From positions 1-35,412 of the IMG/VR virus record IMGVR_UViG_3300033141_003865: a stretch of DNA of 35,412 nucleotides, one strand, 5' to 3'. Positions 17,244 to 34,514 of this stretch are shown here, piece after piece. Position 1 is the first letter of the stretch, and every line of letters begins with the position of its first letter. The notes below the pieces were generated by a model that was not told the origin of the DNA, did not search any database, and saw nothing but the letters and a program-made list of their open reading frames with translations. This DNA comes from a virus. The position numbers and the translations under genes are program-made.

Positions 17244-18602
17244 TTATAAAGGTATATAAAATGCCTCAGTTTGTTTTAAATCAAAAAATACTCTCATCAT
17301 TAACGCGTCAGCGAAATCGGGCGAACGACCAAGTTTTTCTTTTATTTGGTCCTTTGGTATAACTCTTTTTGGTTCATCTTTTCAAATATTAATATGAGTT
17401 AAAACATCAAGTTCTTCTTTTAACATTTCAAAATCTTCACTTGACATTATACTTAAATCAATTTTATTTTCATTTATTAAATCAGCCAATTTAAAATAAC
17501 ATTGGTCTTTAAGTGACTTATAATTTTCTTTTTGTGTTTTATCTTCTTTATATTCCTCACCTTGTATAGCTGAAGCGTTTGACACGAATCCTTTACATTT
17601 TAGGTGTCCAACTACCCCCTCACCTAATCAAGTCTTATCTACGACGACTGACGACATTCCTATAGTATGTATTTTAGCTAAAGCTCTAAATTTATTATCA
17701 AAAGCTTCATCTATTTTATTTTTCCTTATAACTCTATAATAAATTAACTTGTATCAATTCCAAACAAAAATAACAGTTCTATCTTTTCACTCACCAGCAA
17801 TATCGGAAGTAATATATTTACTTCAAGTATAACTTTGGTTTGTTTCTAAATCACAAATTTTATCATAAGACATTAAACGTCAAGGTGTGTCATCATATTC
17901 AAAATCTCATTCCCAAAGTCTTTTACGCTTAATTTTATCTTTTATTCTACTAAGCTTACTTAAATACTGTTTTGTTAAATATTTTGCATTATCACGAGCT
18001 AAAGCCCTAATAAATTTAACAGTTTTACTTTCGTTACCATTCTTAAAAGGTTTCCAAAACCAAGAATAAACCCGTCCTTTGTCAGGATTAAAACAGCAAA
18101 GCACTTTTTCAGGTATATTATATTCTAGATTCATATGACGCCCAACCCTAGTTTGTAGTATTTCTATACCAGCAATAGGACATTCGTTAGCTTCATCAAC
18201 AAAAGCCCCAGTTAATTCAAGACCTCAAAGTTTAGTAAAATGTATATCAGTTGGCTTTTCCATTAATCACCTTGTAATAATACTCGATCCATTAACAAAC
18301 ATTATATCTTTACCGTCCTTAATTGTAAAATGGATTCACTCAATAAATTTTAATTCCTTTAATACTTTTAACATAGAAACAAAAGTTGTATCTTTCGCGT
18401 CCTGAATATATTTACGGAAGATTCAATATTTAACTCATGGATAAACATTACATTGAGAAACGATCCATGCACCAGCTAAAAAGGTTTTACCCCCTCAGGC
18501 TCAACCTCAATATCATAAAAGCTCTACAACTGTATTACTATTGTCTAGTAGTTGTAAAGCTTTGTATTGCTTCGGATTAGGTTCAAAACATAATGCTAAC
18601 AT
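17244..18602 (-). CDS. terL: terminase large subunit
   Basis: This 452-residue packaging motor has an ATPase domain with Walker A GGAGGGKT (residues 33-40) and Walker B AFVDEAN (about 133-139), and an RNase H-like nuclease domain with SDIAGEGKD (first Asp), VVVDKTGLGEGVVGHL and RSPDFADALMM (last Asp). The linker RLWEGDFEYDD is characteristic of the family. UGA encodes two of the glycines in the Walker A loop and the Gly of WEGDF, which fixes the code as UGA=Gly. The ATG at 18602 is preceded by GAAAGGA and by a 260-nt structured leader. The small subunit is 1.5 kb away rather than adjacent. Confidence 0.95.
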
Positions 18603-18861
18603 ATTTCCTTTCGTTAAGTATTATATATAAATGGTGGGTACTAAATAACCAAGATATGCTTCTGTATTCTCTATCCCACATACCTGACTACATATCTACT
18701 CTGTACATTTCAATATGTCTTCCTAAAGCAATTATTTAGAAGAATACCCCCCATTTATATATAATATAGTTTAAAAACTATTTAGGATATAATAAAACTT
18801 ATGGTGAAAGGAGGAAACCACAAGCCCTAATATATCCAAAGCAGTCTTTAAACCGCTTCTA
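18603..18861 (-). ncRNA. structured RNA leader of terL with anti-Shine-Dalgarno loop
   Basis: There is no reading frame here. Three elements occur in the minus-strand RNA. First, a hairpin at 18839-18858 (AAGCGGU/ACUGCUU, loop UUAAAG). Second, a hairpin at 18785-18837: GGAUAUA/UAUAUCC closes an inner stem CUUGUGGU/ACCAUAAG whose 11-nt loop contains CCUCCUUUC, identical to the 16S rRNA anti-Shine-Dalgarno tail. Third, a large stem at 18622-18763: 18 of 19 pairs (TATATATAAATGG arm), then CUAAAUAA/UUAUUUAG, enclosing an 83-nt branched tip with AGAUAUG/CAUAUCU. The first two stems have G-U pairs on the minus strand that would be A-C mismatches on the plus strand, so the RNA is minus. The loop can pair with the terL GAAAGGA (18606-18612). 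A cis regulator or packaging RNA is possible; the family is unknown. Confidence 0.7.
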
Positions 18862-19200
18862 TTAACCTTTAACTACTGCAAATAAATCAAAATCAAAAGT
18901 TTCTCAACCTCCACCAGCGATAGTATAATTGAATCTTATAAACTGCCCAGTTTTACTAGCAGTATTTAATAATTCTTTTGTAACTCCTGTAGCTTGTGTA
19001 AAAGCAACACCAGTATCAAACCAAGTTTCTTTATCAAAAGACGCTTCAACTGTTATATCTAAAGTTGGTGTAGTACCTGCCCCAGCTGTTACGCTTAAAG
19101 CAACATCAATACTATTAACATGATCTTCAGATTGAAAATCAAATACTTCACTTATACCACTTGTTGTAGCACTAGCAATTTCTTGTGTAAAATCTCTCAT
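18862..19200 (-). CDS. hypothetical beta-rich protein (112 aa)
   Basis: This 112-residue protein is rich in Thr, Ser, Ala and Asp: MRDFTQEIASATTSGISEVF, then LSVTAGAGTTPTLDITVEAS, FDKETWFDTG and FIRFNYTIAGGGG. The alternating pattern suggests an Ig-like or jelly-roll beta domain of the kind found in virion decoration proteins. Only one of about ten glycines is UGA, as in the capsid gene, hinting at high expression. It lies immediately before the terL leader RNA. A minor structural or decoration role is inferred only. Confidence 0.6.
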
Positions 19201-26388: not shown

Positions 26389-26389
26389 T

Positions 26390-26509
26390 TTATATAAATT
26401 TATAGGTTAAAATTATTAAAAAAATAAATAGAAATATATATCTTCAGTCGTAAAAAGCATTTTCAATTGTTCTTTTAAAAATTCTATTTTTGGCGTTTGT
26501 TTTATACAT
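26390..26509 (-). CDS. tiny membrane protein (39 aa)
   Basis: This 39-residue protein has a basic N-terminus (MYKTNAKNRIFKRTIENAFY) and one C-terminal transmembrane helix (YIFLFIFLIILTYKFI). It fits tightly between two genes (1 bp and 21 bp gaps). Single-span micro-proteins of this type are common in phage early regions. Function unknown. Confidence 0.45.
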
Positions 26510-26530
26510 ATTTCTATTTATTATTAAATA

Positions 26531-32615: not shown

Positions 32616-32764
32616 TATTTATTTTTGGTTACAAAATAAAATCAAACTTTATCATTCTCAGAGAAAAAAACTATTTTGTGTTTTCTTTTTTCAACTGCGT
32701 CTGTTAATTGTTTTAAACTATTTTGTACCTTTTTACTTCTTAATAGTATTTTTATTCACTCCAT
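32615..32764 (-). CDS. small basic protein upstream of primase (49 aa)
   Basis: This 49-residue lysine-rich protein (MEGIKILLRSKKVQNSLKQL at its start) has a stop that shares its first base with the primase ATG, indicating coupled translation. It is the first gene of the primase operon after the attenuator-like leader. Function unknown; small nucleic-acid binding protein by charge. Confidence 0.5.
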
Positions 32765-32903
32765 AAATTTATATTATAAGATAACAAAAAAACACCGCTC
32801 ATCACAACAGTGTTTTTGCCCTCTATACCCAAACGGTATTTTAGAAAAAAAATGTGATAAGTATAGAGAATTAGAATTTACTTTGTATTGCATTTCCTAA
32901 CGC
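32765..32903 (-). ncRNA. leader RNA / attenuator of the primase operon
   Basis: Transcripts from P2 would begin near 32903. Two hairpins follow: CUCUAUAC/GUAUAGAG (32861-32868 with 32821-32828) and a terminator-type stem AAAAACACUG/CGGUGUUUUU (ten pairs including one U-G; 32808-32817 with 32788-32797) followed by U residues. The loop of the first carries AUCACA (32853-32858) and the loop of the second UGUGAU (32801-32806), perfectly complementary, so the loops could kiss. This would either end transcription as a short RNA of about 115 nt or act as an attenuator for the primase operon. The U-G pair exists only on the minus strand. Confidence 0.6.
32786..32817 (-). terminator. intrinsic terminator inside the primase operon leader
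   Basis: The 10-bp stem AAAAACACUG/CGGUGUUUUU with loop UUGUGAUGAG is followed by a U run. It lies between promoter P2 and the first gene, so it must be bypassed or regulated for primase expression. It is also a weaker terminator in the opposite direction. Confidence 0.65.
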
Positions 32904-32909
32904 TCATTT

Positions 32910-32937
32910 ATTATAATAATTTTTGCAGTAAATGCAA
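32910..32937 (-). promoter_or_regulatory. promoter TTGCAT-16-TATAAT with TTGCA-N5-TGCAA operator (P2)
   Basis: On the minus strand the -35 TTGCAT (32932-32937) and -10 TATAAT (32910-32915) are 16 bp apart. The palindrome TTGCA-GTAAA-TGCAA (32923-32937; TTTTGCA/TGCAAAA at full length) covers the -35, exactly as in P1. Both early operons are thus probably under one repressor or activator. Confidence 0.75.
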
Positions 32938-32988
32938 AACTTTTTTATAAAAAAAATAAGTTGGCTTAAATTAGCTATTACTTTAAGT

Positions 32989-33297
32989 GGTACCGAAAAA
33001 AACGGTACTCCAAAACAAAAACGGTACCTAAAATGGTACCAAAAAATGGCTTATTCTAGGTTAAAAGTCGGGTTAGTACCGTAAGTACCATGTTTTTTTT
33101 AACTTTCTTAGGGGAAGTGTGTTTTACCATTTTCCTTAAAATCATAGGGGGTAAGTGGTAAATCGTCTATCTATATAAAGCATAGGCATTTTTTACGGTA
33201 CTCGCGGTACCAAACGGGGTTTTAGGCAATTAAGAGCCAAAAAATGGTACCGTTTTCGCTTTTTAAAAGTGGTACCAGTACCGTTTTTTTCGGTACC
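32989..33297. repeat. GGTACC iteron-like array, candidate replication origin or partition site
   Basis: Twelve copies of GGTACC or one-base variants (GGTACT/AGTACC) occur in 309 bp, starting at 32989, 33004, 33023, 33035, 33075, 33084, 33197, 33206, 33246, 33271, 33277 and 33292. They are mostly paired, 6 to 15 bp apart. The outermost pairs, GTACCG-A7-CGGTAC (32990-33008) and GTACCG-T7-CGGTAC (33278-33296), are exact reverse complements of each other, so a 21-bp inverted repeat closes the array. There is no reading frame. It is bounded by promoters P2 and P3 and lies next to the primase-helicase gene. Binding sites for a replication initiator, repressor or partition protein are possible. Confidence 0.75.
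33239..33277 (-). terminator. terminator-like hairpin built from two GGTACC repeats
   Basis: In the minus-strand RNA UGGUACC pairs with GGUACCA (33271-33277 with 33245-33251), a perfect 7-bp stem with a 19-nt loop, followed by six U. RNA started at P3 could end here, giving a short RNA of about 60 nt. Confidence 0.5.
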
Positions 33298-33304
33298 TCA
33301 TTTT

Positions 33305-33332
33305 TTTATACTATGATTTTATATAATGTCAA
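33305..33332 (-). promoter_or_regulatory. strong promoter TTGACA-16-TATAAA reading into the GGTACC array (P3)
   Basis: The -35 is the perfect consensus TTGACA (33327-33332) and the -10 is TATAAA (33305-33310), 16 bp apart. The start site would fall at about 33298, the very edge of the outer GGTACC inverted repeat, so a protein bound there would control initiation. No gene follows directly; the transcript runs into the array. Confidence 0.65.
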
Positions 33333-33368
33333 AAAATTATACAACATTTTTAAGCTTTGTAAAACAAG

Positions 33369-33406
33369 AAAAAAAGGTAAAATTTTTCGTTTTTTTACCT
33401 TTTTTT
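33369..33406 (-). terminator. bidirectional terminator after the membrane-anchored hydrolase
   Basis: The 14-bp stem AAAAAAAGGTAAAA / TTTTACCTTTTTTT with a 10-nt loop is flanked by T runs in both orientations. It ends the lysis block 10 bp past the hydrolase stop and insulates it from the control region. Confidence 0.7.
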
Positions 33407-33416
33407 GTCATATTTT

Positions 33417-34124: not shown

Positions 34125-34152
34125 AATTTTATTTTTATTTTTGTAAAGTAAT

Positions 34153-34236
34153 TGTTACATTCGTGTAACATTTTTATTAGTTGCAATATGTTATGATTTT
34201 GTCGTTATTGTAACACAATATTTTTTTATGTTACAA
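34153..34236 (-). promoter_or_regulatory. promoter with TGTTACA operator cluster for the hydrolase gene
   Basis: There are four half-sites. TGTTACA-TTCG-TGTAACA (34153-34170) forms a perfect 7-bp inverted repeat around UUCG-like TTCG, in the 5' leader. TTGTAACA (34208-34215) and TGTTACAA (34229-34236) form an 8-bp inverted repeat 13 bp apart. On the minus strand TTGTAA (34231-34236) and TACAAT (34207-34212), 18 bp apart, can serve as -35 and -10, so operators cover both. A dedicated repressor for this hydrolase is implied. Confidence 0.55.
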
Positions 34237-34263
34237 ATTATTACTTATCATTTACATAAATTA

Positions 34264-34392
34264 CTACTTATCAATTTTTTCTTCCCAATTAATCAACATA
34301 TCTTGATTAATTTCTTTTAATTCTTGTTTTGTTTCTTCTATTATTTCATTATAGAATTTTTTGGAAACTTTCATTTTTCATAATTTCACCAT
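34264..34392 (-). CDS. very small helical protein (42 aa)
   Basis: This 42-residue charged protein (MVKLGKMKVSKKFYNEIIEE at its start; TAG stop) is predicted as one amphipathic helix. A second in-frame ATG at residue 7 would give 36 residues. It lies between two operator-like palindromes, at 34208-34236 and 34417-34434, and could be the small regulator that binds them, but no HTH is visible. Alternatively it is not translated. Confidence 0.4.
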
Positions 34393-34416
34393 TTGTTTTT
34401 GTTTTAAAAAATTAAG

Positions 34417-34434
34417 TGTCTGTTGCAACTGACA
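34417..34434. promoter_or_regulatory. near-perfect 18-bp palindrome TGTCTGTTGCAACTGACA
   Basis: TGTC-T-GTTGCAAC-T-GACA is symmetric at 16 of 18 positions. It lies between the amidase terminator and the 42-aa gene, where no other coding is seen, and contains TTGCAA like the P1 -35/operator. It is probably an operator for a dimeric regulator. Confidence 0.5.
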
Positions 34435-34457
34435 ATATAATAGTAACATTTCATAAT

Positions 34458-34489
34458 AAAAAAAACAACTATCTGTTAAAATAGCTGTT
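34458..34489 (-). terminator. intrinsic terminator after the amidase gene
   Basis: AACAGCUAU pairs with AUAGUUGUU (nine pairs, one G-U) around an 8-nt loop, followed by eight U on the minus strand. It lies 26 bp after the amidase stop. The T run on the plus side is shorter. Confidence 0.75.
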
Positions 34490-34514
34490 TTTATTACTTT
34501 ATTGTATAAAAATA

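Follow-up and report, generated by a model that had tools for sequence, protein, structure and literature searches.

The pRNA of phage phi29 is a phage RNA of helices and loops that is linked to packaging, whereas phage T7 carries hairpins between its genes that are processed by RNase III. Intrinsic transcription terminators likewise lie between phage operons. In staphylococcal phages, the terS-terL genes themselves give rise to a structured RNA termed cabRNA, whose defining property is that it activates a cyclase (PMC10686824). Here we describe the leader of the large terminase subunit gene (terL) in a virus, IMG/VR record IMGVR_UViG_3300033141_003865; the window is the whole analysed stretch of 35,412 nt, positions 1-35,412 of that record. 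The leader is the 259-nt gap at 18603-18861 between a 112-aa gene and terL, and all genes around it are read in code 25 from the minus strand. We tentatively favour, with somewhat less than even confidence, the reading that it divides the terS-side genes from the terL-portal-capsid genes as an RNA boundary element (a weak terminator or an RNase III-type hairpin) and is combined with a lineage-specific insert. The terL gene (17244-18602, minus strand) encodes 452 aa under code 25 with 16 in-frame TGA codons and matches the PHROG terminase large subunit (E 2e-25) and Pfam Terminase_6N. The 112-aa gene upstream (18862-19200, minus strand) matches a major tail protein family weakly and adjoins a small membrane-protein gene on its other side.

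The original prediction described a strongly structured RNA leader biased towards the transcribed strand, and this was confirmed by a z-score of -7.5 on the minus strand and -4.4 on the plus strand for the gap itself. With short flanks included (18595-18866), the minus strand folded at -79.8 kcal/mol (z -5.84 against shuffles) and the plus strand at -56.3 kcal/mol (z -3.90). The predicted helices were also present, namely hairpin 1 at 18768-18854, an outer helix formed by 18619-18640 and 18745-18766, and an inner 8-bp helix. The statement that G-U pairs occur on the minus strand only was nearly right, with 12 in the minus fold versus 2 in the plus fold, but the sense strand of hairpin 1 has one A-C opposition besides its seven G-U pairs. 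Of the 13 window gaps that are at least 142 nt long, the terL leader was the sole strongly folded one with a clear strand bias. The gap at 32616-33416 was the only one equally extreme but is strand-symmetric, and a weaker strand-biased gap was found at 26389-26530 (z -4.3 on the minus and -1.7 on the plus strand). Read in the direction of transcription, the leader consists of a foot hairpin, hairpin 1, a 148-nt element and 16 nt that are unpaired in the fold (CUUAACGAAAGGAAAU), followed by the terL AUG.

Four code-25 relatives with a matching TerL were found in IMG/VR, and searches with TerL, portal or capsid returned the same contigs each time, together with distant standard-code relatives. 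TerL identity to the window was 86% for L004, L005 and L006 and 79% for L007. The leaders of L005 and L006 are near-identical, leaving three distinct related leaders. A search of phage records with the leader DNA gave nothing significant, and its matches in host-class genomes were short, AT-rich and judged to be chance. TerL found no match in a search of genome contigs; its homologues in host-class code-25 genomes were only about 32-40% identical. A comparable leader was not found in the host-class homologues looked at, where terL closely follows the upstream reading frame.

The foot hairpin (GCGGUUUAAAGACUGC, 18841-18856, minus strand) has 6 bp, a UAAA loop and a terminator-like shape and lies 5 nt past the upstream stop codon. 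All six pairs are kept in the window, L004 and L006 (18/18 cells paired) at an energy of -7.6 kcal/mol in each, with two one-sided changes from A-U to G-U and from U-A to U-G. Its letters are included in the lower arm of hairpin 1 (18768-18854, minus strand), a 35-bp imperfect stem with an 11-nt loop (-35.7 kcal/mol, z -8.4), and the foot hairpin and lower hairpin 1 are mutually exclusive. Across the leaders 95% of the hairpin 1 cells were paired, with four one-sided changes that preserve pairing (G-U/A-U) and two basal pairs disrupted in relatives. The covariation in related terL leaders to which the original prediction looked did not appear, as neither hairpin showed a double-sided change among the three distinct related leaders, which are too few for a proper covariation test. 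The fold, the strand bias and the one-sided changes are evidence of selection on RNA, with true covariation lacking in these three leaders.

L004 is the only relative with hairpin 1 (-29.4 kcal/mol, z -6.2) and was the sole homologue in a pattern scan with the 3' arm; it keeps the foot hairpin as well. L006 retains the foot hairpin and, of hairpin 1, the outer arm but not the 43-nt apex. Because the apex is cleanly missing in L005 and L006, whose TerL is 86% identical to that of the window, the long stem is dispensable. Compared with L004, this clean absence leaves the L005/L006 leader (for example L006 1327-1390) with a better terminator-like hairpin ending in a UUUUAUUAU tail. At the foot-hairpin position of L007 stands a small terminator-like hairpin with a U run, UUGCCUUUUGGCUUUUUUUU.

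These observations can be arranged into a candidate boundary mechanism. A small terminator-like hairpin lies directly past the upstream stop and is conserved in three distinct leaders, and in the window phage and L004 this putative boundary hairpin takes the form of the 35-bp hairpin. In the transcript, the long double-stranded stem would be a weak terminator or a cleavage target of the host RNase III, and termination or cutting would detach the terL message from the one upstream and thereby set the terL level. The effect of the hairpin may be termination, cleavage or mere stabilisation, which are alternatives. The 16 nt that precede the AUG of terL would be left unpaired for initiation without a Shine-Dalgarno (SD) sequence, and this unstructured, A-rich start region fits SD-free initiation. 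The boundary reading is supported by a strand-asymmetric fold that no other gap shows as strongly, by the sharing of hairpin 1 with L004, by the complete (100%) pairing of the foot in three distinct leaders and by the terminator-like hairpin that L007 has in this position. Two features expected of an RNase III site, a long near-continuous dsRNA stem (35 bp) and an RNase III in the host group, were present, the enzyme (PF14622) being encoded in 10/10 host-group genomes tested. Counting against it, a consensus terminator scan found no site in the window, and the foot hairpin of the window is followed by UUUGG. Moreover, the hairpins would drop out of the terL message if terL had its own promoter within or downstream of them.

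Like the RNase III hairpins of T7, the window hairpin is a long imperfect intergenic hairpin on the transcribed strand before a downstream start, in a phage whose host group has RNase III. Unlike them, it is unrelated in sequence, single rather than serial and a predicted site, known here from sequence alone. Intrinsic terminators share with the locus a small G+C-containing hairpin directly past the upstream stop, with a U run after the foot-site hairpins of L006 and L007, whereas the window copy lacks a long U run and is embedded in a much longer hairpin. The cabRNA is likewise structured and encoded in the terminase region, but it derives from the terS-terL genes (PMC10686824), whereas the predicted RNA described here comes from the gap before terL. 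It serves as a reminder that defence systems can sense structured terminase-region RNAs. Should transcripts be processed or terminated at the hairpin, this would be one way for Gracilibacteria and Absconditabacteria phages to adjust how much packaging motor is made in the absence of SD control.

The main competitor to the boundary reading, possible though less probable, holds that the second helix is a non-autonomous MITE-like mobile element and hairpin 1 a palindrome gained or lost by replication slippage, both without function. The second helix (18619-18766, minus strand) is a 148-nt element whose 22-nt terminal inverted repeats (18619-18640 and 18745-18766) are 95% complementary, with the 8-bp helix inside them. 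It is missing from 4/4 relatives (L004-L007), where the site is empty, and this agrees with a mobile element, as the clean 43-nt apex difference in L005 and L006 does with slippage. Against mobility, searches of the window, of IMG/VR, of phage records and of 341 host-class genomes gave no further copy or relative of the element. Its inner sequence had no relative in IMG/VR apart from one coding chance match, and a scan with the pattern of the inverted-repeat arm gave 97 stretches, with one match in each contig listed and never a pair. No clear target-site duplication was seen either, the flanks TTTTTAA and ACTTAACG offering at best an ambiguous TTAA. A functionless palindrome is also at odds with the transcribed-strand G-U excess in hairpin 1 (seven G-U to one A-C). 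The second helix is lineage-specific and probably an insert with terminal inverted repeats, and the 148-nt piece may have originated as an inserted or a duplicated palindrome. The 112-aa gene shows a similar distribution, being absent from the corresponding place in L004-L006 and without a match in the L006 and L007 records. Since both are missing in relatives, the gene and the second helix would have been gained in the spacer of the window or lost by the others.

The original prediction centred on a possible pairing between a hairpin loop and the start region of terL. The hairpin 1 loop (18806-18816, minus strand) indeed holds CCUCCUUUC at 18806-18814, and GAAAGGA was correctly placed at 18606-18612 on the minus strand, 3 nt from the terL AUG. 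As DNA, CCTCCTTTC occurs a single time in the window (0.15 expected per window from shuffles). The claim that other leaders have no SD sequence was essentially right, as terL alone among 39 gene starts carries AAGG or AGGA at about -20 to -4, and GGAG or GAGG was found in 0/39 at these positions; in gene 19788, AAAGGAT directly abuts the ATG. The AAAGG just before the terL AUG is kept in 4/4 relatives while the remaining leader changes.

A cis translational switch, in which the loop of the window phage would pair with GAAAGGA as a pseudoknot and restrain TerL synthesis until opened, is in our view unlikely. It would draw on seven contiguous Watson-Crick pairs with a duplex energy of -9.9 kcal/mol, which 1.8% of shuffles of the two stretches matched in a post hoc test, and on the retention of AAAGG before terL together with its rarity elsewhere. 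The pairing itself was found post hoc, however, and it is possible in the window phage but not kept in L004. There the loop reads UUUGCUUCCU, which differs from CCUCCUUUC, and forms with the leader only 3-4 contiguous Watson-Crick pairs (-2.6 kcal/mol), no better than chance. L005 and L006 have no loop, though AAAAGG is kept before their terL. The expected conservation of the loop was thus not borne out, its letters differing in the only relative with hairpin 1. Under the boundary reading, CCUCCUUUC is best taken as the coincidence of a C/U-rich loop. If the switch were true after all, it would constitute an SD-based lock on one gene in a system almost free of SD sequences.

The meaning of the loop as an anti-SD copy depends on the 16S rRNA tails of the host. 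Since prophages in such hosts keep to code 25 (PMC10746230), it is natural to assume that the host uses this code as well. The code-25 pattern GHVDHGKT, in which both glycines are read from TGA, retrieved eight genomes, the majority with Gracilibacteria in their titles; the class to which one of these belongs was taken as the likely host class and searched for 16S rRNA genes. We read 52 tails, 24 of which come from loci whose open-frame lengths clearly indicate code 25. Among these 24 loci of the likely host class, none ended in CCTCCTTTC and one contained CCTCC. Typical tails in the class were AGACCACCATTCTAA and GGACTATCTCCTTATA, and the canonical GGATCACCTCCTTTC was seen once, in L261, a locus of the same class that reads as standard code and whose tail equals the nine letters of the loop, as in some standard-code bacteria. 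Two genomes with phage-related sequence and a readable 16S rRNA gene end in ACCACCATTCTAATC and ACCACCACTCTAACC (ACCACCAUUCUAA and ACCACCACUCUAA as RNA). Hence the anti-SD meaning of the loop did not hold, as the tail differs from CCUCCUUUC in 24/24 code-25 loci and in both of these genomes, with the proviso that all of them stand in for the exact host. Across the code-25 16S 3' ends (L245-L247, L262-L310), the CCUCC core was mostly lost, in several ways such as ACCACCAUUCUAA, ACUAUCUCCUUAUA, ACCACCUUUCUAA and ACCACCACCCUAA.

Loss of CCUCC has already been reported, Absconditabacteria being among the organisms without both CCUCC and SD sequences (Table 4 in PMC10783764); our survey of 52 tails agrees and extends the list by further genomes from this class. 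Both the likely host group and the SD-poor phage studied here fit that description. The case shows that even a strong-looking anti-SD signal in a recoded phage needs to be weighed against the real 16S tails of the host group, in which the CCUCC core is largely lost. A minority of the class tails (for example L268 and L270), such as GGACCACCTTTCTAA, contain the same six letters, CCUUUC, as the loop, and the variant tail GGACCACCUUUCUAA, found in some class genomes, pairs with the terL leader at -8.0 kcal/mol, which also speaks in part for the cis switch. Because minority tails share CCUUUC and pair with the terL leader in this way, we retain at low probability a variant of the switch in which the host tail has drifted to something like ACCACCUUUCUAA and the CCUUUC copy in the loop closes the terL GAAAGG in cis. 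In this variant, GAAAGG, one of the few SD sites of the phage and conserved as AAAGG in 4/4 relatives, would be subject to gene-specific translational control in an otherwise SD-free genome.

We consider a packaging RNA resembling pRNA, or a packaging site acting as DNA, to be very improbable. The location before terL, the strong fold and the helices and loops recall the packaging-linked pRNA of phi29. The apex of hairpin 1 is absent from L005 and L006, however, and the whole second helix from 4/4 relatives, including those with an 86% identical TerL, so that the structure, which unlike pRNA sits in an mRNA leader, is not kept in close relatives. No Rfam covariance model matched in the window at the gathering threshold, and a relaxed threshold gave chance matches only, mostly to miRNA families. 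The G-U bias counts against a DNA cruciform for hairpin 1. In a comparison of terL upstream regions, 0/50 fell below z -4 (the lowest was L004, -3.65); distant terL genes lack such a leader, which is therefore not a general packaging feature. None of these findings points to the pRNA-like molecule that had been suggested.

A trans-acting anti-SD mimic copying the host 16S 3' end, for which the L261 tail and the shared CCUUUC might speak, is scarcely credible and may be regarded as already largely refuted, because the host-class tails differ, the loop letters and second helix are not kept and no double-sided covariation was seen; the near absence of SD sequences in the phage genes and their scarcity in Absconditabacteria (PMC10783764) argue against it too.

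Two further gaps of the window are structured. The gap at 32616-33416 contains many GGTACC and CGGTACC-type palindromes (32980-33300) and a perfect 21-nt inverted repeat (32989-33009 and 33277-33297), with z about -7.4 on both strands; it looks like an origin or an operator array. The gap at 34125-34514 also folds on both strands (z -4.4 and -5.3) and carries GTTACA and TGTAAC repeats. Folding on both strands would be expected of DNA palindromes in these two gaps. Besides, a code-25 contig from a host-class genome (L342) carries relatives of the window's capsid, portal and further head genes, with 46% amino acid identity in the capsid. Its TerL is more distant (32% identity), and this mismatch between head genes and TerL suggests a possible module exchange.
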